A stretch of DNA of 53,022 nt from a virus. The stretch is from the IMG/VR virus record IMGVR_UViG_3300020452_000997, positions 1 to 53,022 of that record; one strand, written 5' to 3'. The notes under the pieces were generated by a model. The model was not told the origin of the DNA, searched no databases, and saw nothing but the letters and a program-made list of their open reading frames with translations. Below, piece after piece: positions 2,161-53,022 of the stretch. A program made the position numbers and the translations under genes. Position 1 is the stretch's first letter, and each line of letters starts with the position of its first letter.

Positions 2161-2172
2161 ATAGTATTCCAT
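2161..2172 (-). promoter_or_regulatory. Late-promoter-like element (ATGGAATACTAT)
   Basis: Read leftward this is ATGGAATACTAT, a member of the GGNANNCTA family that precedes many leftward genes here. It lies 39 bases before the ATG of the 527-aa fibre gene. Confidence 0.5.
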
Positions 2173-3807: not shown

Positions 3808-3820
3808 TTTAGGATACCTA
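3808..3820 (-). promoter_or_regulatory. Late-promoter-like element (TAGGTATCCTAAA)
   Basis: Read leftward: TAGGTATCCTAAA, 21 bases before the ATG of the 534-aa fibre gene. It fits the GGNANNCTA consensus. Confidence 0.5.
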
Positions 3821-4119: not shown

Positions 4120-4132
4120 CTTAGTATTCCTT
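4120..4132 (-). promoter_or_regulatory. Late-promoter-like element (AAGGAATACTAAG)
   Basis: Read leftward: AAGGAATACTAAG, 17 bases before the 92-aa gene. It overlaps the last codons of the gene upstream. Confidence 0.5.
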
Positions 4133-5050: not shown

Positions 5051-5062
5051 CTAGGATTCCTA
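5051..5062. promoter_or_regulatory. Palindromic late-promoter-like element between divergent genes
   Basis: CTAGGATTCCTA reads TAGGAATCCTAG leftward, matching the late-promoter family 11 bases before the 302-aa fibre start. It is a near-perfect palindrome in the 39-base gap between that gene and the rightward gene starting at 5079, so it may be shared. Confidence 0.4.
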
Positions 5063-6199: not shown

Positions 6200-6586
6200 T
6201 TAGCTCCGGGCTCGCTTGCCTGCTCTTTTAGCTTTCCGTGTATTAGCAACTACTCCCTTGCCTTTGCGACTTCCAGCACGTTTCTTTTGATCCGTTGCTC
6301 TTGCCTCGGCCTTGCTCATCGACTTCCATGCGGCGTCGGGCAAATATCGGGCTGTGCCGCCTTTGCGTTTTGCCTTTTTGCCGTCACGAGTGCGCCAACT
6401 TTCCTTTGTCCACTTTGTAAGCTTATTGTCAGATCTCTTGGGACCAGAATAGCTTCCGCCAGACTTTTTGTAGTAGTTTACAGCCAGCTGCGCTGCCCTC
6501 GCGCTCCATTTGCCACCCATCTTGCGCTTGGCTCTAGCTTTGGCCGCTGCCCACTTTTCAGGATCACGCTTGGTTGCAGTACTCAT
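6200..6586 (-). CDS. Basic protein, DUF5872-like, 128 aa
   Basis: The order of motifs (KWSARAAQLAVNYYKKSGG, LTKWTKESWRTRDGKKAKR, RYLPDAAWKSMSKAEARAT, KKRAGSRKGKGVVANT) corresponds to the family I know as DUF5872. That family occurs in phages, giant viruses and algae. The protein is Lys/Arg-rich throughout. The biochemical role is unknown. The neighbours are other basic small proteins, transcribed together with it. Confidence 0.75.
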   Translation of the reverse strand: MSTATKRDPEKWAAAKARAKRKMGGKWSARAAQLAVNYYKKSGGSYSGPKRSDNKLTKWTKESWRTRDGKKAKRKGGTARYLPDAAWKSMSKAEARATDQKKRAGSRKGKGVVANTRKAKRAGKRARS

Positions 6587-7168: not shown

Positions 7169-7335
7169 GAAGTCAGTCCGCCTGTAGATAGTTTACCGCT
7201 GCATTCCACAGAATAAAAGACAGCCACACCGGAGATGCAACCAGTAAGAAAACAAAAGGCACCCCAACTTGCTAAGGTTTTTCTAACCGTTAAGCGATAA
7301 GAATTCTTACCGGCCTCGGTAGTAATTGTTTTCAC
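7141..7335 (-). CDS. Small membrane protein, 64 aa
   Basis: It starts at GTG 7335, which overlaps the stop of the 58-aa gene (GTGA). A hydrophobic segment of about 20 residues (WGAFCFLTGCISGVAVFYSV) is preceded by basic residues (YRLTVRKTL), so the N-terminus should stay in the cytoplasm. A holin-like role is possible but cannot be shown. No ribosome-binding site is visible, in keeping with translational coupling. Confidence 0.5.
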   Translation of the reverse strand: MKTITTEAGKNSYRLTVRKTLASWGAFCFLTGCISGVAVFYSVECSGKLSTGGLTSCQNTYFRL

Positions 7336-7890: not shown

Positions 7891-7903
7891 GTTAGTCTTC
7901 CAA
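7891..7903 (-). promoter_or_regulatory. Late-promoter-like element (TTGGAAGACTAAC)
   Basis: Read leftward: TTGGAAGACTAAC, 21 bases before the 118-aa gene and directly after a terminator. Confidence 0.55.
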
Positions 7904-10342: not shown

Positions 10343-10385
10343 CCAGGCGTCACGCCTGGTTGAGTAGTTCGACGTAGTATGCCAA
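10343..10385 (-). promoter_or_regulatory. Scaffold-gene promoter-like site and leader hairpin
   Basis: Leftward, TTGGCATACTACGTC (10371-10385) matches the late-promoter family. It is followed by a perfect hairpin CCAGGCG-TGA-CGCCTGG (10343-10359) ending 8 bases before the ATG. The hairpin could be a 5' stabiliser or an attenuator. Confidence 0.55.
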
Positions 10386-11045: not shown

Positions 11046-11411
11046 TTATTTTTTCCACTTTTTCTGAGGACAAAGCATGTCGGGATCACCGCCGACCCAC
11101 GTTTTTGCTTCCATAAAGCAACCGCAATCATTGCATCTCTTCGATTCTGGATTAAAAGAATCGCAAGCCTTGCACACAGAGTATCGCTCCTCTCGGATTT
11201 TAACAGAGACCTTGCCATTTTTAATGGCTTGCATGCCAGTACGAACTAAGCCTTTGGCCATCTTCCCTATGCCGGGAGAAGTCTTGGAATACTTGAGGTT
11301 GACATTACTCGTAAACATATTATTCAGCTCTTCATTCCTCTCTTTAGGCCACGCAGAAACAGGGCCTATAGGATAAACTCCTGCCGACTTAAGCTCATCC
11401 TTTAGAATCAT
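11046..11411 (-). CDS. Zinc-ribbon protein, 121 aa
   Basis: The C-terminal 45 residues hold a four-cysteine ribbon (RYSVCKACDSFNPESKRCNDCGCFM) followed by MLCPQKKWKK. I have seen this pattern in a small phage-associated zinc-ribbon family. The N-terminal half is basic and helical. It could bind nucleic acid or act in head assembly. A late-promoter-like site lies 15 bases before the ATG. Confidence 0.65.
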   Translation of the reverse strand: MILKDELKSAGVYPIGPVSAWPKERNEELNNMFTSNVNLKYSKTSPGIGKMAKGLVRTGMQAIKNGKVSVKIREERYSVCKACDSFNPESKRCNDCGCFMEAKTWVGGDPDMLCPQKKWKK

Positions 11412-11426
11412 ATTTAAGGCAAGACT

Positions 11427-11441
11427 GGGCTAGGGTACCTA
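11427..11441 (-). promoter_or_regulatory. Late-promoter-like element (TAGGTACCCTAGCCC)
   Basis: Read leftward: TAGGTACCCTAGCCC, 15 bases before the zinc-ribbon gene and directly after the stop of the 753-aa fibre gene. Confidence 0.55.
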
Positions 11442-13720: not shown

Positions 13721-13734
13721 CGCTAGTATTCCTA
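13721..13734 (-). promoter_or_regulatory. Late-promoter-like element (TAGGAATACTAGCG)
   Basis: Read leftward: TAGGAATACTAGCG, 17 bases before the 753-aa gene. It overlaps the 3' end of the next fibre gene. Confidence 0.6.
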
Positions 13735-14914: not shown

Positions 14915-14928
14915 GACTAGAATGCCGA
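14915..14928 (-). promoter_or_regulatory. Late-promoter-like element (TCGGCATTCTAGTC)
   Basis: Read leftward: TCGGCATTCTAGTC, 16 bases before the 388-aa fibre gene. Confidence 0.55.
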
Positions 14929-15238: not shown

Positions 15239-15250
15239 GCTATGATTCCT
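15239..15250 (-). promoter_or_regulatory. Late-promoter-like element (TAGGAATCATAG)
   Basis: Read leftward: TAGGAATCATAG, 21 bases before the 94-aa gene. It is the ATAG variant, as in the capsid leader. Confidence 0.4.
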
Positions 15251-16845: not shown

Positions 16846-17184
16846 CTAGGTTGCCAAGGTTGAATAGAAAGATAGGTTCGGATCTTTTTTTAATCCTGTC
16901 CTAGGATCTATTACAACGCCCCAGTTTTTTACCGGCTTCCACAGAAGAAAGCCTTCGGAATCTTTAATAACAACATACATGGTCCCAGTTAGATCCGTGC
17001 CATTTCTGTATATAATAATCTGCCCCTCTCTCTCAGGACGCTGATTGATGGCTGTAATTACTCCATCTACAACTACATACTCATCCTGAGGTGGCGGTAT
17101 AGAAGTGATCTTAGCCGCAACAGTTTTGGCATTAGCCCTTGCTGTGGTTTTGATACCGGCTATGAGGGGATCGTTTATAGGCAT
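16846..17184 (-). CDS. Tail-region hypothetical protein, 112 aa
   Basis: The protein begins MPINDPLIAGIKTTARANAK, then has PPPQDEYVVVDGVITAINQR and a beta-rich C-terminal half (GTMYVVIKDSEGFLLWKPV). Its ATG overlaps the previous stop (TAATG). It is unknown and probably a minor tail component, since it lies in a close-packed set of tail genes. Confidence 0.6.
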   Translation of the reverse strand: MPINDPLIAGIKTTARANAKTVAAKITSIPPPQDEYVVVDGVITAINQRPEREGQIIIYRNGTDLTGTMYVVIKDSEGFLLWKPVKNWGVVIDPRTGLKKDPNLSFYSTLAT

Positions 17185-17395: not shown

Positions 17396-17659
17396 CTAAA
17401 ATTTGCTGTAGTAAACGCCATTAGCGTAACTTAATTCCACCTCTGTGCCTGCTGGAATAGACACAAATCCAATAGGCTTTGTAGGGTAATTTTTATTGTT
17501 ATAGCTAACAACTCCTTCTCCACGACTGCCAAGCCTTACCCACTTGCCAGTAACACTGCCAACAAAGTCCCCTTGAATACTAATATCCGAAGCCCGAAAC
17601 TCTAAATCTACAAGCCTGTTGGCGACGCTAATGTTTATGAGTGTGTCTAAGATCATCAT
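17396..17659 (-). CDS. Tail-region hypothetical protein, 87 aa
   Basis: It begins MMILDTLINISVANRLVDLE and contains GEGVVSYNNKNYPTKPIGFV. The first ATG overlaps the stop of the 245-aa gene (ATGA). It is beta-rich, has no membrane segment, and no family was recognised. Confidence 0.6.
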   Translation of the reverse strand: MMILDTLINISVANRLVDLEFRASDISIQGDFVGSVTGKWVRLGSRGEGVVSYNNKNYPTKPIGFVSIPAGTEVELSYANGVYYSKF

Positions 17660-18393
17660 ACAGAGTAATAGCCAAATTGCTTTAAATTCCAGTAGAAAAC
17701 AGCTTCGTTGCCACCAGAGAGAACAACACTTGAGGTTGTCTGGGCAACAGAAAGAACCTGCCCTGCGTTTGATGGTGTGTTTACCGTTCCCACAGAAAAT
17801 GTAAGATTGCCATCCCCCGCTGTAATAGCTCCAATACCAGCTAAGGTTCCGTCAAGAATTATCAAGGTATCAACAGCAGCATAATCATAGCCTGCACTAT
17901 TAATAGTCAAGGCGTAGTCGCCACTGGCAGCCCCACTGTTTGTGATCGTGAGATCAACCGTCAAGCCAACGCCGCTGCCGCTTGTTGTATCGATCGGAAT
18001 ATTTGTATAGGTACCATTTACGCCTGCCGAAGGAACTGATCCATTCGCTCCAAGAGTTAAAGCGTTTCCAGTGCTCCAGACGAGTGCTGCGTGAGAGAAG
18101 TCAATCGATGTAGCTCCTCCGTCATGAGGGAAAACAGTTGCCTTGGTAGTAAGAGCTACGCCATCGTCTGTATAGGTTGTCACGTCTGCAGAAACATAGC
18201 TAATAACCTTACGCTGATAGCCGCCTGTCCCTAAAGGAACCTCGAAGCCAAGGAAAGTGGTGTCGTTCGTAATGCCAGGTTGGTAGGAAGTGCCAGTCGC
18301 GCTAATCAAGCGAGCCTCAAAGGAATTGCCCACAAACCTATTTGTAACCTGAGCTGTTAACTCAGAACTAGATATTTTAGCAGCAATCGCCAT
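17656..18393 (-). CDS. Tail-tip structural protein, 245 aa
   Basis: Ser/Thr/Gly-rich beta protein. The N-terminal 90 residues (FEARLISATGTSYQPGITND, LGFEVPLGTGGYQRKVISYV) resemble tail-associated proteins that I have seen in cyanophages. The C-terminal half has repeats such as TITNSGAASGDYALTINSAG. A late-promoter-like site lies 20 bases upstream, and four coupled small genes follow. The likely role is a minor tail or baseplate protein. Confidence 0.6.
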   Translation of the reverse strand: MAIAAKISSSELTAQVTNRFVGNSFEARLISATGTSYQPGITNDTTFLGFEVPLGTGGYQRKVISYVSADVTTYTDDGVALTTKATVFPHDGGATSIDFSHAALVWSTGNALTLGANGSVPSAGVNGTYTNIPIDTTSGSGVGLTVDLTITNSGAASGDYALTINSAGYDYAAVDTLIILDGTLAGIGAITAGDGNLTFSVGTVNTPSNAGQVLSVAQTTSSVVLSGGNEAVFYWNLKQFGYYSV

Positions 18394-18413: not shown

Positions 18414-18425
18414 GTAGTCTTCCTA
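18414..18425 (-). promoter_or_regulatory. Late-promoter-like element (TAGGAAGACTAC)
   Basis: Read leftward: TAGGAAGACTAC, 20 bases before the 245-aa gene. It fits GGNANNCTA. Confidence 0.55.
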
Positions 18426-20685: not shown

Positions 20686-21087
20686 TTAGATTTGCGTCAA
20701 ACCGAAAGCGACCATCGTAAACTTTGGTCCCATGCGAACATACGTGGGAGGAGTAGAGAAGACAGCGTCAGAAGTAATTGTAGGCCCGAAAGTTTCATCA
20801 ACGACCCCGCAAGCAACAGGAAGACCATTGGACCTGTCCAAGTCCCAAGCTTTAAACATCGTATCCAACTCAAGAGCGGTTGTGTAAGGCACGAGAGAGG
20901 ATAACACCCAAATATACTTCTGACGATAGGCAGGCCCGTCTAGGATTGTTGTTCCATTAGCTGACTGAGAGAATGAAGCTTCTAGTTGATAACTTCGAGG
21001 TAGAGCATTATCTCCAAAATTGTCGAATACTATACTATAAACAGGAGACCCTGTTGATGGCGTAAACGATACTCCGATTTGCGACAT
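20686..21087 (-). CDS. Minor tail protein, 133 aa
   Basis: Beta-rich protein (MSQIGVSFTPSTGSPVYSIV, RSYQLEASFSQSANGTTILD, YVRMGPKFTMVAFGLTQI) of the size of phage minor tail or distal-tail-like proteins. It lies between the tape measure and hub-like genes. Its stop and the next ATG are two bases apart. A late-promoter-like site lies 16 bases upstream. The role is inferred from context. Confidence 0.6.
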   Translation of the reverse strand: MSQIGVSFTPSTGSPVYSIVFDNFGDNALPRSYQLEASFSQSANGTTILDGPAYRQKYIWVLSSLVPYTTALELDTMFKAWDLDRSNGLPVACGVVDETFGPTITSDAVFSTPPTYVRMGPKFTMVAFGLTQI

Positions 21088-21103: not shown

Positions 21104-21117
21104 GGCTAGTTTTCCGA
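21104..21117 (-). promoter_or_regulatory. Late-promoter-like element (TCGGAAAACTAGCC)
   Basis: Read leftward: TCGGAAAACTAGCC, 16 bases before the 133-aa minor tail gene. Confidence 0.55.
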
Positions 21118-21479: not shown

Positions 21480-24320
21480 TTAATTATACCGAAGCCTCTT
21501 TATCTTGGCCAGTTGCACCATTATGTCACTAGCTGTCTGTGTGGTGTTATCGGCCTGGATTGTGACATTGTTGGTTACGTTGTCACCTGACACGCTATTC
21601 AGGATGGCGCTAGCAAGCTTGTTGAAGTTCATTCCGCCAGCCGCAGAAGAAGTAGAGTTGACCGCCGCTCTGTTTACATTCACCCCACCTGAGGGAACGT
21701 TGAGCTGTTTTGTAAGGTGTGCAGGAATGACCGTGCCCTTTGAGGGGGCTTTCCATTTTCCGAAGGATGGAGCGTTAATCATACTCAACCGACCAGAAGC
21801 GGACAGGAAGGCTTCCTTACCAAGTTCGTTGACGGTATAATTGCCACCGCCTGAGACAGGTCCCCCAGCAAAACGGAATCTTTCGGAACCGGGTCCAAAC
21901 AAAGGATCAAAAAAACCTCTTCTTGGTCTGTTGTCAACGCCAGAAGTGTTAGCACCAGCATTGTTATCAGCTCTTGCTTGATTATTTGCCGCAATAGCAG
22001 CTTTCCTGGCTGCAGTTTCTAAGTTTTGGTATTTAGTGATCAGATTATTAACAGACCCTATCTGCGTCCTGAGAGCTGCATCACCTTCGTAGACTGCCCT
22101 GGTTACGCCATTAGCACTATCGATTGTCTCTTTGATCTCTTCATTGATCTCTTTCTGAAGCCTTTTGCTTTTTTTTAGTCCTTCTTCTTCTTTTTTCTTC
22201 TGACTCTCCAGCAACCTAATTTTTTCCTCGTACTTTTTCGTAATGGTATCTAAGTCAGCTTTTTCTTCACCTAACAAGTTTTGCTTTTGAATGTCAAGGC
22301 TTTCCTCCTCCCGTTTCTGCTCTAAGCGAAGCTTTTCGATCTTCTCGATCCTTTCCATCCTTTCTAGCCGAGCTTCCGCTTGAAGCTGTGCTTCCCTGTC
22401 TAGGCTTCTGCTTGCGATCTTGTTCTTAAGTTCGTTCTTCTGAAAATTATAAAGAGCTTGTTCTGCTCTGCCTTTTTTCTGAAGATCTCCAATTTCTAGA
22501 TCATAACGCTCTCTGACCTTAGCAAGGATGGCATCAAGATCACTTTTTTCTTGAGAATAGCGATCTTTTAGGGCAGTTTTGGCTTTTTGGTAAGAATCGT
22601 TTTCTATCTGAATGGCTTCCGACTTCTTGTCGATAATCTCTTGGATGTCATTCTGCTCATCTTTATACCTTTTGTCAGAAGCTCTCTTTTGAGCTTTTAA
22701 CGCATCGACTCCAAGCTCCATAGCAGTTTTAGCATTATCAGCTTCTTCCCTTATTTTTTCAAAATTTTCAATAAGTTTTTGGTTTCCTCCCATCCTGAGT
22801 TGTTTTTTAACGCTGTCAGTGAGAGAACCAACAGAAGCCGCAGCTTTATTTGAAGTCTCGTCAACGTCCTCTAGATCTTCGTTAAGACCTTTCGATTGGT
22901 TGGCTAAGAAGAGAGCTGCACCCGCAGCGGCTGCTGTAGCAAGAGCAATTGCAGCGTAACCACCGGTAAGACCCGCCAGGAAAGTGGTAACAACAGAAAG
23001 AATTTTTTTAGCCGCAATCCATGCCTTAACTGCTATTATAATTTTTTTAATACCTGTTGCGATTGCACCTAAGTTCATGAGAACCATTGCAGCCGTAAAC
23101 GTAGCTAAGCCTGCAACCAAAGAGGCTAAAGCAATAGTTACAGCCTGTATATTGTCTGATATGCTCATAAGGAAATCAGAAAATAATTTCATGCTTCCGC
23201 TAATCAAGCCGCCAAATGCTTTGTCAGTTTGGTTTAGAGCGTTAACTGCTTCTAACGCAAGCTTCTGAAAAGATGCTTCGATTTTAGCAAAACGGCCTTG
23301 AAAAGTTTCCTGCATCCTGACTGCGATTTTCTGATAATCAGAACCCTCCTTTGTCATATTGGCAAACGCCGCAGCCACTTCAACTCCAGTGATCCTGCCT
23401 TCTGTAGCCATCTGTTTTAGGGCTGACGTGCTTTCTCCTGTGACAATAGAAAGCTGTTGCCAAATAGGAACACCCTGGATAGCAAATTGCGTCAAGTCAC
23501 GAGTGTAGGCACGGCCTTGAGCGGAAATCTGACCCAGGTTTCTGGCCATCAAATTAATGTCCCCACCAGTTGCGGCAGCGACAATGCCAAGCTGTTCTGT
23601 CGCTTTAATCGATTTGTCGGTATCAACGCCAAAAGCCATCATAATCTTGGCAGCGCTAGCAACTTGCTCCAAGTTAAAAGGACTGTTTCCCGCAATTCTT
23701 ACGAACTCGTCAAAAGCTGCTGAAGCCTCTGCAGCTCCGCCAGTGAATCCCTCAAGCTGTAGCTGAAGGGTTTCCATTCTCATTGCGGTATTAGCAAGAT
23801 CGCCAATAGCGGCAATCATTTTAAAAACACCAGTAGTTGCTAAGTTGGCCGCTGTTTGTAATCCAATAAACTTAGCACCAATCGATTCTAAGAAGTTGCC
23901 TTGCTGCCCAAAACGCTTCATCTCTTTGTTAATCAGTTTTACTCTTTCGTTTAAGGTCTTCCATTCTTTAGTAACCTCATTAGTGCCGTCTTTAAATTTC
24001 TTAGTATCTCCTATCAGACCCTTTATTGCTGCCTGTTGCTTTTTAAGCTGATTAGGGGTCTTACCTAGCTGGCCATTGACGGCTTTATGTATCGTCTCAA
24101 GCCTTTTTGACTCTTGACCTACTTTTTGAATCTGTTTAGCGACAAGTTCGCCATTTTTGAATTCTACTTTAACTGCTGTCTCGAACTTTTGATTAAAAGC
24201 CTTATTCAGTTTGTTTTTAGCCCTGGTCGCCCCCGAATCAACAGTATCAAAGAACCTGTTTATAGAATCGACAGCATTAGAGTTGTCAACATTAACATTA
24301 AAGGTTAGGTTCTCTGCCAC
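21480..24320 (-). CDS. Tape measure protein, 946 aa
   Basis: Residues about 180-370 carry the tape measure domain (LQLEGFTGGAAEASAAFDEF, NSPFNLEQVASAAKIMMAFG, FAIQGVPIWQQLSIVTGEST, then MQETFQGRFAKIEASFQ). A hydrophobic stretch follows (about 385-480, AVTIALASLVAGLATFTAAM, AAIALATAAAAGAALFLANQ). Residues about 500-760 are a long charged coiled coil. Such proteins set tail length and help DNA entry. By the usual ratio of about 0.15 nm per residue the tail would be about 140 nm, which is an inference. It starts at ATG after its own terminator-promoter pair. Confidence 0.92.
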   Translation of the reverse strand: MAENLTFNVNVDNSNAVDSINRFFDTVDSGATRAKNKLNKAFNQKFETAVKVEFKNGELVAKQIQKVGQESKRLETIHKAVNGQLGKTPNQLKKQQAAIKGLIGDTKKFKDGTNEVTKEWKTLNERVKLINKEMKRFGQQGNFLESIGAKFIGLQTAANLATTGVFKMIAAIGDLANTAMRMETLQLQLEGFTGGAAEASAAFDEFVRIAGNSPFNLEQVASAAKIMMAFGVDTDKSIKATEQLGIVAAATGGDINLMARNLGQISAQGRAYTRDLTQFAIQGVPIWQQLSIVTGESTSALKQMATEGRITGVEVAAAFANMTKEGSDYQKIAVRMQETFQGRFAKIEASFQKLALEAVNALNQTDKAFGGLISGSMKLFSDFLMSISDNIQAVTIALASLVAGLATFTAAMVLMNLGAIATGIKKIIIAVKAWIAAKKILSVVTTFLAGLTGGYAAIALATAAAAGAALFLANQSKGLNEDLEDVDETSNKAAASVGSLTDSVKKQLRMGGNQKLIENFEKIREEADNAKTAMELGVDALKAQKRASDKRYKDEQNDIQEIIDKKSEAIQIENDSYQKAKTALKDRYSQEKSDLDAILAKVRERYDLEIGDLQKKGRAEQALYNFQKNELKNKIASRSLDREAQLQAEARLERMERIEKIEKLRLEQKREEESLDIQKQNLLGEEKADLDTITKKYEEKIRLLESQKKKEEEGLKKSKRLQKEINEEIKETIDSANGVTRAVYEGDAALRTQIGSVNNLITKYQNLETAARKAAIAANNQARADNNAGANTSGVDNRPRRGFFDPLFGPGSERFRFAGGPVSGGGNYTVNELGKEAFLSASGRLSMINAPSFGKWKAPSKGTVIPAHLTKQLNVPSGGVNVNRAAVNSTSSAAGGMNFNKLASAILNSVSGDNVTNNVTIQADNTTQTASDIMVQLAKIKRLRYN

Positions 24321-24335
24321 GTCAAATCCAAATCT

Positions 24336-24350
24336 GGTCTAGGTTTCCAT
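24336..24350 (-). promoter_or_regulatory. Late-promoter-like element (ATGGAAACCTAGACC)
   Basis: Read leftward: ATGGAAACCTAGACC, 15 bases before the tape measure gene and directly after the tail-tube terminator. Confidence 0.6.
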
Positions 24351-25065: not shown

Positions 25066-25503
25066 TTACACAGGTCTGATTGGCATATTTGACTTAATAA
25101 ATATTTTAGATTGAACCAAAGCTCCCAATCCGTCAGTAGTTGCCACTGTCTGCACCGCCTGTGCTCCTACGAATCGCTTCAAGAGATAATCGACAGCAGA
25201 TTGCATGTCACTACCTTTGGAAGGCTCCCAAGCCACCAGGAAAACGCTCCAGGTTGTGACGATATAGGGATCATCCGTTAGATAATCCTGAGAGACCGCG
25301 TCTCCGGCGTCTTGAACTATGCATTCAACTCCCTGCACGTTTCTAATAGATGGCATGTCCTGGCCAGCGCTTACAATAGAAAGGGCAGTTACCGCTCCAC
25401 TGCTGCTTCTAAAGTTATAAGTACCCAGAAGGTTTGTAAAGGTTACGTCTGCTGATATGGTTTCATAAATGACCTGAGCTGAAGTAGGAAATAGTTGCGT
25501 CAT
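25066..25503 (-). CDS. Probable tail terminator/completion protein, 145 aa
   Basis: MTQLFPTSAQVIYETISADV at the start, then YIVTTWSVFLVAWEPSKGSD and MQSAVDYLLKRFVGAQAVQT, resembles small siphophage tail-terminator proteins in size and mixed alpha/beta pattern. It lies directly before the tail tube gene, the usual place. A late-promoter-like site lies 20 bases upstream. The assignment rests mainly on synteny. Confidence 0.55.
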   Translation of the reverse strand: MTQLFPTSAQVIYETISADVTFTNLLGTYNFRSSSGAVTALSIVSAGQDMPSIRNVQGVECIVQDAGDAVSQDYLTDDPYIVTTWSVFLVAWEPSKGSDMQSAVDYLLKRFVGAQAVQTVATTDGLGALVQSKIFIKSNMPIRPV

Positions 25504-25523: not shown

Positions 25524-25535
25524 TTAGTATTCCGC
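25524..25535 (-). promoter_or_regulatory. Late-promoter-like element (GCGGAATACTAA)
   Basis: Read leftward: GCGGAATACTAA, 20 bases before the 145-aa gene. Confidence 0.55.
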
Positions 25536-27233: not shown

Positions 27234-27758
27234 TCAGCCAAACTTCTTTGACCATACCTCGTTAAATCCTTGGTTCATTGGCTTTGACATGTTGAACTTA
27301 GTGACCCCACTATGACCTCTTAGGGTCGCATCGATCCATGGTCGTGCTGGAATTAGTACAGAATTGGCATTCCTATTGCCATAAGGCTGTACAACTCCAC
27401 CGTAATGAACAAGAGCGGCATAAGGAGACTTGTATTTGATCTGAAGAATCGTCTTCGTCTTGAGATACTTCTCTGCTATAGTCAAAGACTTCTTAAGGGA
27501 ACCAGTATCGACAATATTTCTTGGGGTGTTAACTGTTTGACCGTTTTCCCTAAGAGTCATGCCATTCCAATTCCAAATAGAAGAGTCCATGGTCTTGTCA
27601 AGCGCTAACTTCAAGTCTCTCTGAACATAGGCAGTTGCTTTTACTGTGCCAGAGACAATGGCTGATCTCATCGCCCTTTTCATTTTAGGCGTATTGTCCT
27701 TCATTTCGATCTTGGGAGGTAAGATCTCTAGTTTGGTTGAGAAAGAAAAGTCTGACAT
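27234..27758 (-). CDS. HK97 gp10-like neck/tail completion protein, 174 aa
   Basis: The characteristic features are a helical start (MKRAMRSAIVSGTVKATAYV), then NIVDTGSLKKSLTIAEKYLK, and the conserved YKSPYAALVHYGGVVQPYG with IPARPWIDATLRG. This matches the HK97 gp10-like family, which joins head and tail. The ATG overlaps the preceding stop. Order and spacing fit a neck-to-tail series. Confidence 0.8.
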   Translation of the reverse strand: MSDFSFSTKLEILPPKIEMKDNTPKMKRAMRSAIVSGTVKATAYVQRDLKLALDKTMDSSIWNWNGMTLRENGQTVNTPRNIVDTGSLKKSLTIAEKYLKTKTILQIKYKSPYAALVHYGGVVQPYGNRNANSVLIPARPWIDATLRGHSGVTKFNMSKPMNQGFNEVWSKKFG

Positions 27759-28267
27759 TAATTCTGTATTTCGCCACCAGTCAGTTGAATCTCAACACCA
27801 CCTATCTCCTTGTAAATGATTTCATCAATTCCTTGGCCACCAAAAACACCACTAGAACGCTGAATCTTGGCTGCTGGCATGATTGGGTCTTGGCCAAAGC
27901 GAAACTTGCACTCTTTCCCTGGATCAAGCCATGTGAATTGTGTGGTAACCTGATTCCAAGTTAAACCAGTTTCATCTGAGCTTTCCAGATCCCAGTTTCC
28001 AGCGACTAAAACATACTCAAGAGCATATCCACGATAATAAAATTGATCCCCACTCGCCCCTGGTAACATATTGCCATCAAGTTGAGACTCAAGAGGTAAC
28101 TTCTTGCTACCAGAAGAGACTCCAGCATATTGCGATCGTTTTACCCATAATTTGACCAAGTAGGCATTCGCTTGAGAAGTCACCCATCGGCCATTAACTT
28201 GCGTAACCGTGCCCTCATCTGGGACCAGCAGCCGCCCGTTTTCATAACCCAATAACGGGGAAGTCAT
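27758..28267 (-). CDS. Head-tail connector region protein, 169 aa
   Basis: Beta-rich protein (MTSPLLGYENGRLLVPDEGT, AYLVKLWVKRSQYAGVSSG, YYRGYALEYVLVAGNWDLES). It lies between the gp10-like gene and other neck genes, where head-closure proteins are usually found. No signature was recognised. A late-promoter-like site lies 16 bases upstream. Confidence 0.6.
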   Translation of the reverse strand: MTSPLLGYENGRLLVPDEGTVTQVNGRWVTSQANAYLVKLWVKRSQYAGVSSGSKKLPLESQLDGNMLPGASGDQFYYRGYALEYVLVAGNWDLESSDETGLTWNQVTTQFTWLDPGKECKFRFGQDPIMPAAKIQRSSGVFGGQGIDEIIYKEIGGVEIQLTGGEIQN

Positions 28268-28283: not shown

Positions 28284-28299
28284 CCAACTAGGTTTCCAT
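28284..28299 (-). promoter_or_regulatory. Late-promoter-like element (ATGGAAACCTAGTTGG)
   Basis: Read leftward: ATGGAAACCTAGTTGG, 16 bases before the 169-aa gene. Its first ten bases are identical to the tape measure site. Confidence 0.6.
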
Positions 28300-28316: not shown

Positions 28317-28556
28317 TCAACGGCACTTAGAACAACTCTCTACTTCACCCTGAAGATACTTGGCATAATTAGCATTCATTTTGGTCCATGTATTGCAACC
28401 TGTACACCAAACATCAACTGTTTCATGACTCTCGATCTCTCTCATGATCTCTCCGAGAAAACCTTCGTTCATTTCAGGATGGATAGCCATGAGTTGTTTT
28501 TTAGCTTGACACAGGTTACCACAAAAAAACTTAGGATCTAATAAGTTGTGTGCCAT
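28317..28556 (-). CDS. Cysteine-bearing small protein, 79 aa
   Basis: From ATG 28556 the protein reads MAHNLLDPKFFCGNLCQAKK, with later WCTGCNTWTK and a terminal CSKCR. Three CxxC-type pairs suggest a zinc-binding or zinc-ribbon fold. It overlaps the upstream gene by 26 bases. The family is unknown. Confidence 0.55.
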   Translation of the reverse strand: MAHNLLDPKFFCGNLCQAKKQLMAIHPEMNEGFLGEIMREIESHETVDVWCTGCNTWTKMNANYAKYLQGEVESCSKCR

Positions 28557-28935
28557 GACCGTATCCGCTAATATAACCGCCGAGGCAAACACAAAAACTA
28601 AAAATTTTAATCAATTCATCCTTTACTCGATTTTTCTCGGCTTGAGGGCCAGACATTCCACCATTACTCACCTCCCATTTTAATACGTCAGCCTCTATTA
28701 GTGTTTTGCCTTCAGTATTTGCTAGGTTTTGGGTCACTTGGGCCGTATCTGCGGCATTATAGTCAGTCAAAAGGTCTAAAACGTCTTGCTGTGCCACTAC
28801 AGACATCGTCTGCAAGTCATTCATGCAGGTAATCACACAATCTTGCGTATAAGTACCAAAAGGCAGGCTCATTGCCCTGATGACACGATAATCATCTCCA
28901 GAAGACCAGAGTCCAGAAGTGTTTAAAACAGCCAT
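28531..28935 (-). CDS. Neck-region structural protein, 134 aa
   Basis: MAVLNTSGLWSSGDDYRVIR, then MSLPFGTYTQDCVITCMNDL and a helical middle. The last residues (IKIFSFCVCLGGYISGYGHG) are hydrophobic and Gly/Cys-rich. A head-tail connector role is inferred from position among neck genes. A promoter-like site lies 19 bases upstream. Confidence 0.55.
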   Translation of the reverse strand: MAVLNTSGLWSSGDDYRVIRAMSLPFGTYTQDCVITCMNDLQTMSVVAQQDVLDLLTDYNAADTAQVTQNLANTEGKTLIEADVLKWEVSNGGMSGPQAEKNRVKDELIKIFSFCVCLGGYISGYGHGTQLIRS

Positions 28936-28954: not shown

Positions 28955-28967
28955 CAGTAGGGTTCCA
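28955..28967 (-). promoter_or_regulatory. Late-promoter-like element (TGGAACCCTACTG)
   Basis: Read leftward: TGGAACCCTACTG, 19 bases before the 134-aa gene. Confidence 0.5.
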
Positions 28968-29409: not shown

Positions 29410-30315
29410 TCAAGTAAAAACAGGTTCAGTAGTGCCGAAATCAAGCACAAATGTCGTAGCACTAAGATCACTTCCCATATAATAATAATATTTATTGTTA
29501 GTAGTATTCTGAATTAACTGCGCATTGGTTAAATCTACTCTCGCAGGCTGATTCGTGCCAGCCGATGGCATAAACACCCCTTGATCACTTCCACCACCAG
29601 GAATACAAGGCGTTGAACGTGCAGTTCCAGTACTTGAAGAAAACGTACCTTCACTATAGTTAAATCCAACACCCTCAAATACAAAAGCAGCCTCTAAACC
29701 TCCATATGTAATATCAATATTAGAAATACTAGGATTCAACTTATACTCGCCACTACCACCAGCGCTACCAATTGGTGCATTGCAAAAAGGTACACCAAAT
29801 CCCCCTTGAGTCGCTAACCCCACACTCGTATTCGGATTATCACTCCCACTAGCCCACGGCAATCCCCTATATAAATTCCACTTACCTCCACTCCCTAATC
29901 CAGGCCAAAACCATTGACCAACCTTCCCCTTCGTAACAAGAAATGCATCAGTCTTCTCATCACTCTCCCATATCCTCCAACTACCTCCCGCTGGCGGTTG
30001 AATTAAACCTATCGGATTACCAGCACTTAAACTACCATTGTCACCCGGTGTTGTACTATATCGCTCGTTCTCATACTGCGTACAATTCGTATTGCTAGCA
30101 GACGTCCAGTTATACCATAAATAACTACTACTCGTACTACCCTTGATATCATCAAACGTCATCGTCATTACTCTCTCAAATGAATCACTCCCCGCTCCAA
30201 CCGTAAATCCACTCTTCCCACTTAAGTATGTATCGAAAAAATGCGTCAGAAATCCATCCACATACGACCCGTTCGTTGCATTCGCAGCCAGTGTGTACAC
30301 TAAACTCCAGGTCAT
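29410..30315 (-). CDS. Virion-associated hypothetical protein, 301 aa
   Basis: The protein is rich in Gly, Ser, Asn, Trp and Tyr with no charged coiled coil (MTWSLVYTLAANATNGSYVD, GKVGQWFWPGLGSGGKWNLY, STPCIPGGGSDQGVFM). This composition resembles a beta-structured virion or tail protein. It is the first gene of the leftward neck/tail block and has a good promoter-like site 25 bases upstream. No family was recognised. Confidence 0.6.
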   Translation of the reverse strand: MTWSLVYTLAANATNGSYVDGFLTHFFDTYLSGKSGFTVGAGSDSFERVMTMTFDDIKGSTSSSYLWYNWTSASNTNCTQYENERYSTTPGDNGSLSAGNPIGLIQPPAGGSWRIWESDEKTDAFLVTKGKVGQWFWPGLGSGGKWNLYRGLPWASGSDNPNTSVGLATQGGFGVPFCNAPIGSAGGSGEYKLNPSISNIDITYGGLEAAFVFEGVGFNYSEGTFSSSTGTARSTPCIPGGGSDQGVFMPSAGTNQPARVDLTNAQLIQNTTNNKYYYYMGSDLSATTFVLDFGTTEPVFT

Positions 30316-30340: not shown

Positions 30341-30353
30341 GCTAGTATGCCAA
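30341..30353 (-). promoter_or_regulatory. Late-promoter-like element (TTGGCATACTAGC)
   Basis: Read leftward: TTGGCATACTAGC, 25 bases before the 301-aa gene. Its first 12 bases are identical to the site before the terminase genes. Confidence 0.6.
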
Positions 30354-32804: not shown

Positions 32805-32965
32805 ATAGTATAAATGCCTAGTTGTTAATCAACTGGGCTTTTTTTTGCGCTATTTGACTAGTACATTTGTTCTAGGTATTTATGCCTATGACACTTCTGA
32901 ACTGGCATAGGTATATTTGCCTAGGTATATTTGCCTAGGTATTTATGCCTAATACATTTGTACTA
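32805..32965. repeat. Right cluster of 16-bp near-palindromes (operator-like)
   Basis: Sites start at 32873, 32908, 32922, 32936 and 32950, with degenerate copies at 32805 and 32859. The core is TAGGTATTTATGCCTA or TAGGTATATTTGCCTA. The last four form a head-to-tail array with an exact 14-base period in which neighbours share TA. The half-site TAGGTA is the same as in the cluster at 30442-30618, so the two clusters bracket the rightward genes. Confidence 0.75.
32817..32848 (+). terminator. Terminator closing the rightward block
   Basis: CCTAGTTG-TTAAT-CAACTGGG followed by a run of eight T, 20 bases after the 99-aa gene. It lies inside the operator-like cluster. Confidence 0.8.
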
Positions 32966-32972
32966 CCGCAAA

Positions 32973-32990
32973 ACAGCCCCGTGGGGCTGT
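32973..32990 (-). terminator. Strong hairpin, possible leftward terminator
   Basis: Perfect stem ACAGCCCC-GT-GGGGCTGT. Leftward it is followed by TTTTGC. It could stop leftward read-through from the block ending at 33627. Confidence 0.5.
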
Positions 32991-33149
32991 TCACTATCAT
33001 AGCTGCATGCCACCAAATTTTTACGCCAACCCTCCGCCGCCGAATCTTAACCAACTGTAATGTTGCAGATTGTTACAGAAACTTGACAAATCGCAAGGGC
33101 GAAGCCCATCCCCCCGACGCAACGACTAACCTATCGAGCCCTCTCAGAA

Positions 33150-33293
33150 TGGCCTACAACCAGCGTGTACTTATATATGGGTTACATTCTAAGTCAAAAG
33201 CAGTAAAAGGACCCTGAAGAGCCTCAGGAAGACCTCATAGAGGCGTTACCAGATATATGGCCTACGGAGCAACCCATAACCATCGAGATATAG
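33150..33293 (+). pseudogene. Two-frame small ORF with possible +1 shift at CCC TGA
   Basis: From ATG 33150 one frame gives MAYNQRVLIYGLHSKSKAVK-GP and stops at CCC TGA (33213-33218). Shifting +1 there gives EEPQEDLIEALPDIWPTEQP-ITIEI before TAG 33291, which has the composition of a real protein end but no start codon of its own in that stretch. It may be a decayed gene, a +1 frameshift gene, or an assembly indel. Nothing else is evident in 32991-33378. Confidence 0.35.
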
Positions 33294-38331: not shown

Positions 38332-38778
38332 TCAGAACAACAGCAACTGAAGATGGTTCCTGACGATCACTCTATCATGGATCTGGCTGTCAAGTAAGGC
38401 AACAGTAGCGCCCTTGCCGACGAAACAAGTATCCTTCTGGCCATTGTGGCCAAGGAAAAGGCGCACACCCTCGGGGATAAGGTCTAGAGCTCCTGCAGCA
38501 TCCAAGAGACCATTCAGTCGCTCTCTAGTGGTCCTTGACGGCCTTCCCTTCGAGTCAAAAAAGCCTCCGTTGCGAAGTGTCAAGCATTGAGAGGAAAGCT
38601 CAAAAATCGAGATCCCGAACAGAAGGACCTCGAAGGTTAGCTCTTGAGTAAGCCTGTTCTTCTTGACCGAGACTGTGGTGTTCCCCTTTGTTTCGCTAAG
38701 AAGGGTAGAGGGGTTTCTAATAAAGTCCGATAAGCGATCGGCTGCGAACTGGGTAAGTGTGCGGTTTGATCTAGTCAT
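38332..38778 (-). CDS. Hypothetical protein, 148 aa
   Basis: ATG 38778 has AAGGA at good spacing. The protein reads MTRSNRTLTQFAADRLSDFI, then VSVKKNRLTQELTFEVLLFG and RTTRERLNGLLDAAGALDLI. It is mixed alpha/beta with a basic start and no known motif. It ends about 50 bases before the repeat region. Confidence 0.6.
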   Translation of the reverse strand: MTRSNRTLTQFAADRLSDFIRNPSTLLSETKGNTTVSVKKNRLTQELTFEVLLFGISIFELSSQCLTLRNGGFFDSKGRPSRTTRERLNGLLDAAGALDLIPEGVRLFLGHNGQKDTCFVGKGATVALLDSQIHDRVIVRNHLQLLLF

Positions 38779-42057: not shown

Positions 42058-42128
42058 GTCCTTGAAAAGTAAGGCAAGAGACCCCGAAGCGTTTTTCTCG
42101 CCTCGGGTGAAAAACGATCGTTGCTCAT
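42054..42128 (-). CDS. Possible 24-aa peptide bridging nrdJ and the 67-aa gene
   Basis: ATG 42128 overlaps the nrdJ stop (ATGA) and its own TGA overlaps the next ATG (ATGA). It reads MSNDRFSPEARKTLRGLLPY-FSRT. It may be a real peptide or just a translational relay. AAGGAG lies one base before the ATG, too close for a classical site. Confidence 0.35.
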   Translation of the reverse strand: MSNDRFSPEARKTLRGLLPYFSRT

Positions 42129-44476
42129 ACTCCTTTCTCTCTTTCGTCAGCGTCGGCTTTAGCGATACAGGCAGCACTTGAACATGAAGTCACTGATTCC
42201 AAAGAGTACTCCTCACTGTCGAAACGATTCAGTATATCAAGAAAGTCTTCGCCAGAGTCGGAAATCAACTGAATCGTAACTAACTTGTCATAAGTAGCTT
42301 TATCAATTGGTTCAAAAGGAAGACGGGGGAATGTTCCACCATCAACATCAAATCGAGCCAATAAAGCCGCAGAAATGTAGCCAGTACCTTCCTCAATGCT
42401 TTCATGAATCAATCCAGATAAAGACTCAATTTCGTTTTCACGAAGCTCGATAGTAGCCGAGGTATTGTGGTCTGTATAGAAACTTTGAACATTCATGTAA
42501 AGACCCCACTGAGCCTCCACGGGGAGCTGAGCTAAATCAAATTCATCACAGCCAGGAATGTTGGCCCAACTTACTTCGGTCGGGATTTCCACCAAGACTT
42601 CTTGGACACGAGGGTCGTTAATATCGTCAAGGAGGTTGCCTTCATTGTCTCGTGCCGACTGAGCGGGGATGACGGAGAAGCCTTTTTCGAGGAGAGTTGG
42701 TACCAAAGGATCATTGATTCCGAGAGTGATACGACGAATGAAGCGTTGAGCCTTGGGAGGATGCCAGCCAGAGGAAGCTCCTGTCAAGAGACTCTTAGTG
42801 CCAGCAGGTTGAACGGTAGTGATCCGATTAGGTACGCGGAGCTCGTGCTTGGCGCAATAGTCTTCAACGCCCTTGTGAGCGGCATTACGCCACCGGCTAA
42901 GGTGCGACTGCTCCAGGCCGTTAAAAAGATCCGACGCCTTGCGGCCCTTACGACCTTCCATCATCCACTTCAACCACTCGTAGCCGCCAGAATGCACCAA
43001 GAAATCAAACAAGCCAGTGAAAGAGACACCAACGATTGGATCGATCTCCCGACTGTACTGGTATCTTTCGTGGACGAATTCATGCTGTAGTAGCGCAGCG
43101 ACCTGGAGTCCAGCAGCATAAAATGCGGCTTCTTGTGCTTCATAGTCTTTAGGGTCAATGTTATTGAGGTGGACCTCTGCCAGGTTGCAGTGAAAGTCAC
43201 GGCCGATGATTTCGCCGCAAGGGTTGAGGCCATAGCGATCCATGCGGTGCTGGAGTTCTCGTTTCGAGAATGGCACCTCGTATGCACGAGAGAGGAACTT
43301 GAGGTAGTTCTTGGCGGCTTCGCGACCATTGTTGACATAAGTGTTCAAGAAGTGACTCCGCTTTCTGCACGTCTTGAGTAAATCTGCGTTAGCACGAGCC
43401 ACTGCCTCAGGGACGTACTGGATCGCACCTTCGCCTGACTCAAATTGCAAACGCACAGCACTCTTCACTTCTTCCAGAGAAGGCTTGGTATGATAGCAGC
43501 GAGTGTGGTTAGCCATACGAAGAGCTTCTTTCTTCGGGTCTACACGCCAGTTCCCTGCCTCGTCTTGGGAGTACAGGCCCAGCTTGGCCGTGGTCGCTTC
43601 CTGGTTATCCTGAGAAAACTGACGCATGCCAGCAGAGCGACGGATGTTACCAGCTACGATGGCAGTAGCAGCTTCATCGATAAGCAGGCAGGCTTCAACT
43701 GGAGTCAGTTGACGTCCAACCGCACCATTAAGAATATCGATGACTCTTACAAAAGTTTCTTCTAGCTTGACAGGGTTAGACGTGCCCCCAAAGCCCTTAA
43801 GTTTTTCTCCTGCTGGGCGAACGTTCCCAAAGTCAATGCGTACAGACTCAGTGTTACGCTTATTCAGGTGAGGCTGCTTATAAAAACAGGCCAAATTAAT
43901 CAACGCTTGATAAGCGTCTCTCCATCCCTTCCTAGAGTCTCCAACAGCTATCGTAACCCATTCGTATGGGCCGCCTGCGTAAAGGGGAGTTCCGCCCTCT
44001 CTTATTATCTGAGTGTTTTCGGTGCGCTTACTCTCTGGGACACTGCCCGGAGATCTTCCAGGGAATTGAAGAATCCTTGTCTGCACCGGAGGTAATTGAG
44101 CTACGATAGAGTCCTCTAGCACCGCGCCTGTCCCTGAGCCCTGCATAGCAAGGTCTACAAGCAACCCAAAGGCATCCAAGTCGCCAATATGAGTCGAGGT
44201 GCAGTTGTAATAGCCAGAAAAGTTTTCCTGCTTCTTGCTCCATGGAGTGCCAGCGACCCAGAAAGCACGACCAGAAGGAAAAGCTCGTTGCTTTAGAGCC
44301 TGCTCGCGAACAATGCTGTACTCGTCCTGAGTGTATTGGCCTACCAGTGCCAGATCATTGACTGTGCGGAGCATTGCTTGCTCGAAGTTCTCGCGGGTTC
44401 CGTCTTCTTTTCTGCGGCTATATGTGCGGTAAAACACGGTTTCAGCTGATGGAGCATTGCAATTAAACTCGTTCAT
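42125..44476 (-). CDS. nrdJ: Class II (B12-dependent) ribonucleotide reductase, 783 aa
   Basis: The length and motifs fit the monomeric adenosylcobalamin-dependent type: SGYYNCTSTHIGDLDAFGLL with the first active-site Cys, LNPCGEIIGRDFHCNLAEVH (about residue 419) with the NxCxE thiyl motif and second Cys, and the C-terminal pair C765-x4-C770 (CSSAAC) that passes electrons. GTGAVLEDS and LTGASSGWHPPKAQRFIRRI are further family landmarks. It makes deoxynucleotides for phage DNA. The glutaredoxin gene 1.2 kb upstream may provide electrons. A late-promoter-like site is 20 bases upstream. Confidence 0.93.
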   Translation of the reverse strand: MNEFNCNAPSAETVFYRTYSRRKEDGTRENFEQAMLRTVNDLALVGQYTQDEYSIVREQALKQRAFPSGRAFWVAGTPWSKKQENFSGYYNCTSTHIGDLDAFGLLVDLAMQGSGTGAVLEDSIVAQLPPVQTRILQFPGRSPGSVPESKRTENTQIIREGGTPLYAGGPYEWVTIAVGDSRKGWRDAYQALINLACFYKQPHLNKRNTESVRIDFGNVRPAGEKLKGFGGTSNPVKLEETFVRVIDILNGAVGRQLTPVEACLLIDEAATAIVAGNIRRSAGMRQFSQDNQEATTAKLGLYSQDEAGNWRVDPKKEALRMANHTRCYHTKPSLEEVKSAVRLQFESGEGAIQYVPEAVARANADLLKTCRKRSHFLNTYVNNGREAAKNYLKFLSRAYEVPFSKRELQHRMDRYGLNPCGEIIGRDFHCNLAEVHLNNIDPKDYEAQEAAFYAAGLQVAALLQHEFVHERYQYSREIDPIVGVSFTGLFDFLVHSGGYEWLKWMMEGRKGRKASDLFNGLEQSHLSRWRNAAHKGVEDYCAKHELRVPNRITTVQPAGTKSLLTGASSGWHPPKAQRFIRRITLGINDPLVPTLLEKGFSVIPAQSARDNEGNLLDDINDPRVQEVLVEIPTEVSWANIPGCDEFDLAQLPVEAQWGLYMNVQSFYTDHNTSATIELRENEIESLSGLIHESIEEGTGYISAALLARFDVDGGTFPRLPFEPIDKATYDKLVTIQLISDSGEDFLDILNRFDSEEYSLESVTSCSSAACIAKADADEREKGV

Positions 44477-44496: not shown

Positions 44497-44506
44497 TAGT
44501 TTACCT
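44497..44506 (-). promoter_or_regulatory. Late-promoter-like element (AGGTAAACTA)
   Basis: Leftward AGGTAAACTA, matching GGNANNCTA, 20 bases before nrdJ. The rest of 44507-44603 is T-rich with no gene seen. Confidence 0.45.
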
Positions 44507-48748: not shown

Positions 48749-49480
48749 TCAAAACAAGCTGGGCTGGCTTCTCCCGTTAGACAATTTGTCAGCGCCTTCA
48801 ATAAGCTCATCACTAATGCTTTCCCAATAAGTACCGCGGCATCCTGAAAGCTTCAACAGTTTGTCAACCGCCGAGACGGGCAATCGTGAACCCGTACCAC
48901 TTAGGTAAATCTCTAATTGATTCAATACCTCGACATTCTCTCCTAGATTGTCAATGGTTTCTTTTGCCATCTGCATATAAACTGAACCAAAATCGATCTC
49001 GTGAGGCTCTAAAGCTTCTGTAGGTTTAGCTTGTTCCTTTAATTCAAGAGGCGGACCTGAACACACTTTGCGAATCTCTTGCCATTCCTGACAATCAATG
49101 TTCAACTCCTTCGCAATCTCGATGTCGCTAGACCCACGATAAAGCAGTTTTCGTCCCTTGACCCAGCGCTCTCTCATTTTGTGAGATAGTCTCATAGCAT
49201 AAGTTCGATCCCTAACCCAGTGAAGTAGCTCACCGCGTATTGTAGGTATGGCTAAGCTAGAAAATCTCATACTTTTACCCGTTACGGGATGAGGCTTGGA
49301 AGGATCATAGCGGTAAGCCGCCTTACACAGCCCTTCAAATGCGACTGATTCTAAAGTGTGATATTCAATACCAGTCGTCCTTTGTAGACGCCAAGCCTCT
49401 CTTCTTGCCAAGTTGAGGTTGTCCGAAGCAAGCTTCTGCTGCTCCTTGCTCATTTTGAATTTAGCGGTACGACGAGCCAT
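48749..49480 (-). CDS. Phage sigma-70-family factor, 243 aa
   Basis: Region 2 is clear: TLESVAFEGLCKAAYRYDPS, then MRFSSLAIPTIRGELLHWVR-DR, the pattern of group-3 sigma factors in which FSS-A-IPxIRGEL follows an RYDP core-binding segment. A following helix-turn-helix-like segment (GSSDIEIAKELNIDCQEWQE) could be region 3. The C-terminal 90 residues show no region 4 motif. A factor of this type would redirect host RNA polymerase to late promoters. It lies between terminase and primase genes. Confidence 0.85.
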   Translation of the reverse strand: MARRTAKFKMSKEQQKLASDNLNLARREAWRLQRTTGIEYHTLESVAFEGLCKAAYRYDPSKPHPVTGKSMRFSSLAIPTIRGELLHWVRDRTYAMRLSHKMRERWVKGRKLLYRGSSDIEIAKELNIDCQEWQEIRKVCSGPPLELKEQAKPTEALEPHEIDFGSVYMQMAKETIDNLGENVEVLNQLEIYLSGTGSRLPVSAVDKLLKLSGCRGTYWESISDELIEGADKLSNGRSQPSLF

Positions 49481-49500: not shown

Positions 49501-49506
49501 ATTATA
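49501..49506 (-). promoter_or_regulatory. -10 box TATAAT before the sigma gene
   Basis: Leftward TATAAT, 20 bases before the ATG of the sigma gene, in an A-rich 55-base gap after terL. No convincing -35. Confidence 0.45.
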
Positions 49507-51693: not shown

Positions 51694-51707
51694 GACTAGT
51701 ATGCCAA
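51694..51707 (-). promoter_or_regulatory. Late-promoter-like element (TTGGCATACTAGTC)
   Basis: Leftward TTGGCATACTAGTC, 17 bases before the terminase small subunit. It shares its first 12 bases with the site before the 301-aa gene. Confidence 0.6.
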
Positions 51708-52181: not shown

Positions 52182-52433
52182 TTAAGATTTGTTTTTGTAG
52201 TTTGCAGAATTGTCAGTAGGAGGAGAGCCTGCGTTAACAGTCATGTGTTGTTGATAGCTCAGTCTTTTGTACCGATTAGTGAAAATATCAGGTAGCCAGT
52301 AGGTTACTTGCCATTGTATCTCGCTATTTAGCCTGAGGTGCTCCTCCAGTGAATGATGGAAAACCCCGAGCTGCATGTAACCATCATGAGTTATTAGATG
52401 GTTACCGCAGTCGACTATAAAGTGATCAGCCAA
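52182..52433 (-). CDS. Hypothetical protein between psbA and hli, 83 aa
   Basis: The frame reaches from TTG 52433 (overlapping the psbA stop by 8 bases) to 52182. An ATG at 52376 gives 64 residues. It contains [20 protein letters not shown], then [20 protein letters not shown]. It is aromatic-rich without a membrane helix. Its place inside the photosynthesis pair suggests a related role, but nothing shows this. Confidence 0.5.
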
Positions 52434-53022
52434 TTGAAGGCGCCACTAAGGCCACAGGCGTGGAGCTAGCTGTTGCAAGATCAAGCGGAAAGTTGTGGGC
52501 ATTACGCTCGTGCATGACTTCCATTCCGAGTCCTGCTCGGTTGAGGATGTCTGCCCAGGTGTTGACGACGTGGCCGTCACTGGATTGGATGGATTGATTG
52601 AAGTTGAAGCCGTTCAGATTGAAAGCCATAGTTGACACACCTAATGCTGTAAACCAGATGCCGACAACAGGCCAAGCAGCAAGGAAGAAGTGAAGACTCC
52701 GGCTATTGTTAAAGCTGGCGTACTGGAAGATAAGCCGACCAAAGTAGCCGTGAGCAGCAACAATGTTGTAAGTCTCTTCTTCTTGTCCAAATTTGTAACC
52801 GTAGTTCTGGCTGACTGTTTCTGAGGTTTCACGAATCAATGAAGATGTAACCAAGGAGCCATGCATTGCAGAGAACAACGCACCTCCGAACACTCCTGCA
52901 ACTCCCAACATGTGGAAGGGGTGCATCAGGATGTTGTGCTCAGCTTGGAACACCAACATGTAGTTGAAGGTTCCAGAGATGCCCAGGGGCATTGCATCAG
53001 AGAACGAACCCTGACCGAAGGG
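52426..53022 (-). CDS. psbA: Photosystem II D1 protein, C-terminal part (5' end beyond right edge)
   Basis: By D1 numbering the visible part runs from P162 to the end (198 residues). Present are Mn-cluster ligands D170, E189, H332, E333, D342 and A344 (from [28 protein letters not shown]), H190, H198 (chlorophyll ligand), H215 and H272 (iron ligands) and the QEEETYN loop. The C-terminal extension after A344 ([15 protein letters not shown]) would be removed by CtpA. Residue 171 is Ala where host D1 usually has Gly. It replaces damaged host D1 during infection. Confidence 0.97.

Follow-up and report, generated by a model that had tools for sequence, protein, structure and literature searches.

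Which promoters are read by a phage sigma factor with region 2 and no recognisable region 4, and what stands in the place of that region? The question is raised by a gene on the minus strand of the window, the whole stretch of 53,022 nucleotides of viral DNA analysed here. An earlier note on this DNA had given the open reading frame with exact coordinates (Table 1), had linked it by inference to a late promoter element and had named T4 gp55 as a precedent. In our main reading, to which we give a probability of roughly 0.6, the gene, from a cyanobacterial siphovirus, encodes a T4-gp55-like late sigma factor that evolved independently from a group-3 sigma factor and is tethered to the host sliding clamp, promoter reading and clamp binding both being inferred.

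The sigma factor gene and its product

The profile of PHROG 36098, a sigma factor family, matches residues 1-194 of the window sigma (E 1.1e-93). Orthologues from the same clade are found in the Synechococcus siphoviruses S-CBS2 and S-CRES1-3 (67-75% identity), and a more distant one in the Prochlorococcus siphovirus P-SS2 (48% identity over residues 2-151 of the window sigma); a first scan of IMG/VR gave 58 loci of sigma relatives. The gene order terS-terL-sigma-primase is common to the window, S-CBS2 and the S-CRES phages. The deposited sigma gene of S-CBS2 (gp077 region, L060:6832-7587) is shortened by a frameshift and its tail, GRLQGSLF, lies in another frame, so that the deposited gene must contain a frameshift or sequencing error. 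A full orthologue (66% identity) is also present on DGOV01000074.1, a contig binned as a proteobacterial MAG that is possibly a misbinned phage contig. At the right end of the window, an apparent C-terminal part of psbA (photosystem II D1), cut off by the contig end, occupies positions 52426-52992 (-); this assignment was made by eye only, without a family search.

Regions 2 and 3 of a group-3 (SigF/SigB-like) sigma factor are both present in the window protein. Pfam Sigma70_r2 matches 41 of 41 aligned relatives, the window protein itself scoring 18.1 bits, under the curated cut-off of 24 bits. The best NCBIfam match is a SigF model (76 bits, the whole-protein cut-off of 261 not being reached), restricted to residues 14-139, and hhalign aligns residues 17-139 of the phage family with 24 cellular group-3 sigma factors (E 9e-24 in a one-target search). 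The AlphaFold2 model (pLDDT 77.6) displays a region-2 fold at residues 12-97 and region-3 helices at 100-140, followed by a low-confidence linker, three C-terminal helices and the tail, and VIA-align recovers sigma domain 2 at Z 12-13 with the full-length model. Pfam gave no r3 match; region 3 is identified from the predicted helices, the span of the NCBIfam SigF match and hhalign. Region 3 did not figure in the earlier account.

Region 4 was sought by three approaches. Pfam found none in 41 proteins, and the hhalign alignment to cellular group-3 sigma factors ends at residue 139, the C-terminal part alone reaching a probability of 0.7%. Residues 153-243, modelled separately (pLDDT 86), matched nothing in the PDB significantly (Foldseek E 2.0 and VIA Z 2.2 at best). 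A hidden region 4 in the C-terminus was discarded on the profile-profile comparison and on this separate fold. Full-length structure comparison yielded rows extending to residue 214, opposite residue ~606 of sigma70, which were not taken as sigma4 because the rmsd was about 15 Å. The structure searches, which likewise showed no region 4, would not decide the matter by themselves, and its absence rests on profile and profile-profile comparison too: region 4 is not recognisable, and a remnant is not disproved. In the short clade the best hhalign alignment, which is not significant (probability 0.3%), falls at region 4.1, where a putative remnant is possible only. The earlier note, which had described a group-3-like region 2 without region 4, is thereby upheld on both counts; a region 4 in the last 90 residues, which would have refuted it, was not seen by any of the three approaches, and the structural comparison that it had suggested recovers region 2 with no sigma4 match.

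Table 1. Coordinates of the sigma factor gene, of the parts of its product and of the late elements in the window
Feature	Position	Strand	Remarks
Sigma factor gene, 243 aa	48749..49480	-	PHROG 36098 match; orthologue of S-CBS2 gp077, S-CRES3 gp21, P-SS2 gp003
Sigma region 2, group-3 type, residues ~12-97	49190..49447	-	Profile, profile-profile and structure comparison
Sigma region 3, residues ~100-140	49061..49183	-	hhalign to residue 139 and predicted helices
C-terminal three-helix part, residues 164-211	48848..48991	-	At the expected place of region 4; no recognisable sigma4
C-terminal QPSLF, residues 239-243	48752..48766	-	Candidate host beta-clamp-binding motif QxxLF
TATAAT	49501..49506	-	Probable -10 of the sigma gene's promoter, host type
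Late element GGCATACTA	51697..51705	-	Before terS
Late element	44497..44505	-	Before ribonucleotide reductase gene (42125-44476)
Late element GGCATACTA	30343..30351	-	Before 29410-30315
Late element	28958..28966	-	Before 28531-28935
Late element	28289..28297	-	Before 27758-28267
Late element	25525..25533	-	Before 25066-25503
Late element	24340..24348	-	Before 21480-24320 (probable tape measure gene)
Late element	21107..21115	-	Before 20686-21087
Late element	18415..18423	-	Before 17656-18393
Late element	16847..16855	-	Before 15249-16826
Late element	14918..14926	-	Before 13732-14898
Late element	13724..13732	-	Before 11442-13703
Late element	11431..11439	-	Before 11046-11411
Late element	10375..10383	-	Before 9606-10334 (probable scaffold gene)
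Late element	7893..7901	-	Before 7513-7869
Late element	7189..7197	-	Before 6854-7168
Possible late element	6229..6237	-	Before 5895-6197; within preceding coding sequence, weaker candidate
Late element	5052..5060	-	Before 4131-5039
Late element	4122..4130	-	Before 3824-4102
Late element	3810..3818	-	Before 2182-3786
Late element	2162..2170	-	Before 538-2121

The late element and its position

Separate runs of de novo motif discovery on four sequences, the window, S-CBS2, S-CRES3 and P-SS2, converged on one core, GG.A..CTA, with log-likelihoods of 98-115 versus 38-51 in mononucleotide-shuffled controls. The core of the late element is GGNANNCTA and its best copy TTGGCATACTAG. Of the GGNANNCTA sites in the window, 21 fall 15-60 nt 5' of start codons, at 8.64 per kb versus 0.106 per kb elsewhere, an enrichment of 81x; the corresponding values are 57x in S-CBS2, 46x in S-CRES3, 48x in S-CRES1 and 103x in P-SS2 (first 100 kb). 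Sheer abundance was dropped as evidence: the window contains 32 copies of GGNANNCTA versus 22 in dinucleotide shuffles, mildly above chance, and 64 of TTGGCATACTAG with 3 mismatches versus 43 expected by chance. With totals so near chance, the evidence resides in position and strand, by which the shared late element of the earlier note is real. The motif precedes 25/44 late versus 0/20 early genes in S-CBS2, 27/53 versus 0/18 in S-CRES3, 22/45 versus 2/17 in S-CRES1 and 12/37 versus 0/13 in P-SS2, the split into early and late genes being our own, from annotation and position.

No upstream hexamer exceeded 0.9 bits over 107 motif sites; therefore the element has no -35 partner, in agreement with what had been noted before. 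We assign to it, by inference, the register G(-14)G(-13)N A(-11)NN C(-8)T(-7)A(-6). In known sigma factors A(-11) and T(-7) are the two bases captured by region 2. The strict motif occurs in 38 of 42 distinct terS upstream sequences, and in 19 of those 38 a terminator-like hairpin with a T-run is found at most 22 nt 5' of it, although one of the 19 (L045) has only a short, doubtful TTTT.

The distance from motif to start codon is about 28-32 nt for most late genes (median 29-32 nt), a tightness that counts against the promoter model inasmuch as it would also fit an element acting at the RNA level. A translation enhancer or processing site, with the GG nearly constant at 28-32 nt 5' of most start codons, appears to us very improbable, since some sites are 49-80 nt away from the start, the motif is absent from most early genes, A(-11) and T(-7) are arranged as in a -10 element, and the terS motif often comes straight after a terminator, so that transcription has to start anew.

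Scans for an early-promoter consensus revealed no clear class. The TATAAT described earlier ahead of the sigma gene is present; in most relatives (L001-L058) it is replaced by TGGTARACTG or a similar sequence, which resembles an extended -10 and also the late element with G for A at -6. Judging from these letters, dual reading or autoregulation of the sigma gene may be possible. At ~32880-32944 (+) of the window, short GCCTAGGTATATTT repeats stand immediately 5' of the ORF at 32945-33217.

The sigma factor that reads the late element

Each of nine related records (W01-W04, G001-G005) encodes exactly two region-2 proteins, the group-3 sigma factor and an RpoD-like one. The latter is gp061 in S-CBS2 (L059:47804-48589), its gene adjoins ssb in cultured relatives, and only 32-50% of its residues are identical between S-CBS2 and the S-CRES phages; that of the window phage would lie outside the window fragment. 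The earlier note did not include this second sigma factor.

Motif and group-3 sigma factor co-occur, the motif being enriched in five phages with the protein and not significantly in five without it. Among the motif-poor cyanosiphoviruses, 5/5 of them without this sigma factor, KBS-S-2A has 3x the motif before starts (p 0.35, not significant), S-LBS1 has a single site in the 15-60 nt zone (p 0.07, not significant), S-CBS1 and S-CBS3 have none in that zone, and S-CBS4 has none there in the first 50 kb, the part searched. At least four of the five, KBS-S-2A, S-CBS1, S-CBS3 and S-LBS1, contain an RpoD-like sigma factor and lack an orthologue of the group-3 protein.

We infer, in the absence of biochemical or expression data, that the late element is read by the group-3 and not by the second sigma factor. 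The group-3 protein is favoured because: (i) the phages with the RpoD-like protein only (n=4) show no significant motif enrichment; (ii) the second sigma factor diverges quickly, whereas the motif and, with 67-75% identity within the window's clade, the group-3 protein stay conserved; (iii) the missing region 4 fits the missing -35 element, and (iv) the -10 elements of SigB, another group-3 factor, also begin with GG (PMC9847131, PMC8346170). No -10 consensus of B. subtilis sigF/sigG was found in the open-access literature searched, and hence no weight is put on a resemblance to it. The first two points also tell against the RpoD-like protein being the reader, with the group-3 protein having some other target or role, as does its region 2, from which one would infer a TANNNT -10, a T at -12 not being fixed in the motif. 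Such an arrangement seems improbable to us, but the RpoD-like protein is present in 9/9 related records, which counts against our model, its gene is a neighbour of ssb, and expression of the S-CBS2 protein alters the metabolism of a cyanobacterium (PMC10452541); the second sigma factor must be excluded experimentally.

Reading by host sigma-A polymerase, with the element serving as an extended -10, receives the least credence. The element has A(-11) and T(-7) in common with -10 hexamers, and the TGGTARACTG upstream of sigma genes is of the extended -10 type; however, T at -12 is not fixed, C(-8) and A(-6) are additionally fixed, and other Synechococcus cyanosiphoviruses are without significant motif enrichment.

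The phages bearing the motif belong to one lineage, so that its co-occurrence with the group-3 sigma factor does not amount to many independent pieces of evidence and may be phylogenetic, a further point against the model. The link between gene and motif inferred in the earlier note is probably right, with comparative support from that single lineage and no activity shown.

The C-terminal tail, the proposed mechanism and known systems

Forty distinct proteins of the family (37 long-clade relatives, L194, L195 and the window protein) end in Q-x-x-[L/V]-F, these residues being the last of the protein and preceded by a variable linker. In these proteins Q239 is conserved at 100%, L242 at 97% and F243 at 100%, the top-residue frequency of residues 171-190 being about 40%. 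Synonymous codons of the tail vary freely, which implies selection on the protein and not on the DNA, and a DNA-level cause of its conservation was dropped. The bacterial clamp-binding consensus is QL[S/D]LF, generally QxxLF (PMC12309361), and can be C-terminal, as in PolC and transposases (PMC12309361, PMC4549789). The tail agrees with QxxLF at the three positions that reportedly matter most (PMC12309361), and its second position is G, P or A instead of the preferred L, so the affinity may be weak. Such strict ends are rare elsewhere: about 500 CDS, annotated or chosen, from five phages yielded 2 others, one being a RusA-like resolvase. The RusA-like resolvase of S-CBS2 (L060:2103-2474) ends in CEQEPLF and is another candidate clamp binder; a 148-aa protein of unknown function in the window, 38332-38778 (-), has the strict end QLLLF.

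Searches for beta clamp, Pol III alpha and Pol A in the nine related records found none, with controls that did give a signal and with B-family polymerases outside the search. A phage clamp or polymerase as partner of the tail was set aside within those three families, and the host clamp is consequently the likely partner. That the tail binds it and thereby activates transcription is a prediction from a motif match, without binding data, and full-text search of the open-access literature retrieved no report of a phage sigma factor bound to a bacterial beta clamp. A tree built with FastTree from residues 1-150 places neither P-SS2 nor the short clade among the tail-bearing proteins, and L216 lies inside the long clade yet without the tail. 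Without the tail, both P-SS2 and the short clade have retained the sigma factor, and the motif where tested; the tail therefore characterises a clade and is not required for the motif itself, and its clade specificity counts against the model. That absence, the lack of binding data and the unusual second position would be accommodated if the QxxLF end contacted core polymerase or a phage activator, leaving a plain region-4-less late sigma factor. We consider this unlikely, given the placement of the tail behind a variable linker at the very end of the protein, its fit at the three key positions and the rarity of such ends in other CDS.

Computation supports the domain architecture, in which region 4 is not recognisable, the late motif with its specificity for certain genes, the co-occurrence of motif and sigma factor, and the conservation of the tail at the protein level. 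For the remainder, namely the sigma factor as motif reader, the exact promoter register, tail-clamp binding and transcription activation, which are inferred without biochemical or expression data, we propose a clamp-tethered model. In the model, host polymerase would make the sigma factor from the gene's own promoter, and the product, engaging the host core enzyme by way of regions 2 and 3, would redirect it to GGNANNCTA promoters, with both production and redirection inferred from the sequence. The putative -10-only late promoter lies directly 5' of structural, terminase and nucleotide-metabolism genes, where the sigma factor, having no region 4, would make no -35 contact. In the clade of the window, the variable linker ending in QxxLF, in the place of region 4, would dock on the host DnaN sliding clamp. 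The tail may in this way hold the polymerase on clamp-loaded, replicating phage DNA and boost late transcription, in the manner of T4 gp55 with the phage-encoded clamp gp45; the basis for this step is the motif match. We regard it as an even question whether this represents convergent, T4-like, replication-coupled late transcription in one group-3-derived sigma factor, with the host beta clamp replacing a phage clamp.

The earlier note is extended by the promoter consensus and its distribution among phages, by descent from a group-3 factor with region 3 retained, by a conserved tail of the clamp-binding type and by a second sigma factor. The group-3 phage sigma factor gains a candidate regulon and promoter sequence, a point left open in the P-SS2 paper. 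Under the model, clamp-mediated coupling of late transcription to replication would have arisen a second time, by convergence and through the clamp of the host; if true, the coupling would be a direct link from the host replisome to phage transcription in cyanobacterial viruses.

The orthologues P-SS2 ORF003 and S-CBS2 gp077 are likewise encoded after terL, and the portion of their literature at hand makes no mention of a late motif, a missing region 4 or a clamp tail; unlike the window sigma, that of P-SS2 has no tail. Cellular SigF, SigB, SigG and FliA align with the window sigma in regions 2 and 3, and SigB -10 elements begin with GG like the window late element, whereas the cellular proteins possess region 4 and use a -35 element. 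T4 gp55 has sigma region 2 and no region 4, reads -10-only late promoters and works with gp33 and the sliding clamp gp45 (PMC2988020, PMC7892883); a variable linker leads to its clamp-binding C-terminus (PMC2988020). It was not among the PDB profile matches of the window sigma, and no direct comparison was made. The window sigma resembles it, at the level of sequence alone, in region 2, the unrecognisable region 4, the variable linker and the clamp-binding-type C-terminus, the last of which strengthens the gp55 precedent and had gone unmentioned; the late motif of the window phage is likewise -10-only, its reading by the window sigma not being shown. In contrast to gp55, the window sigma has a group-3 ancestor and keeps region 3, the late element of its phage is GGNANNCTA, and its tail belongs to the bacterial QxxLF class, for which the proposed partner is the host clamp and not a phage gp45.
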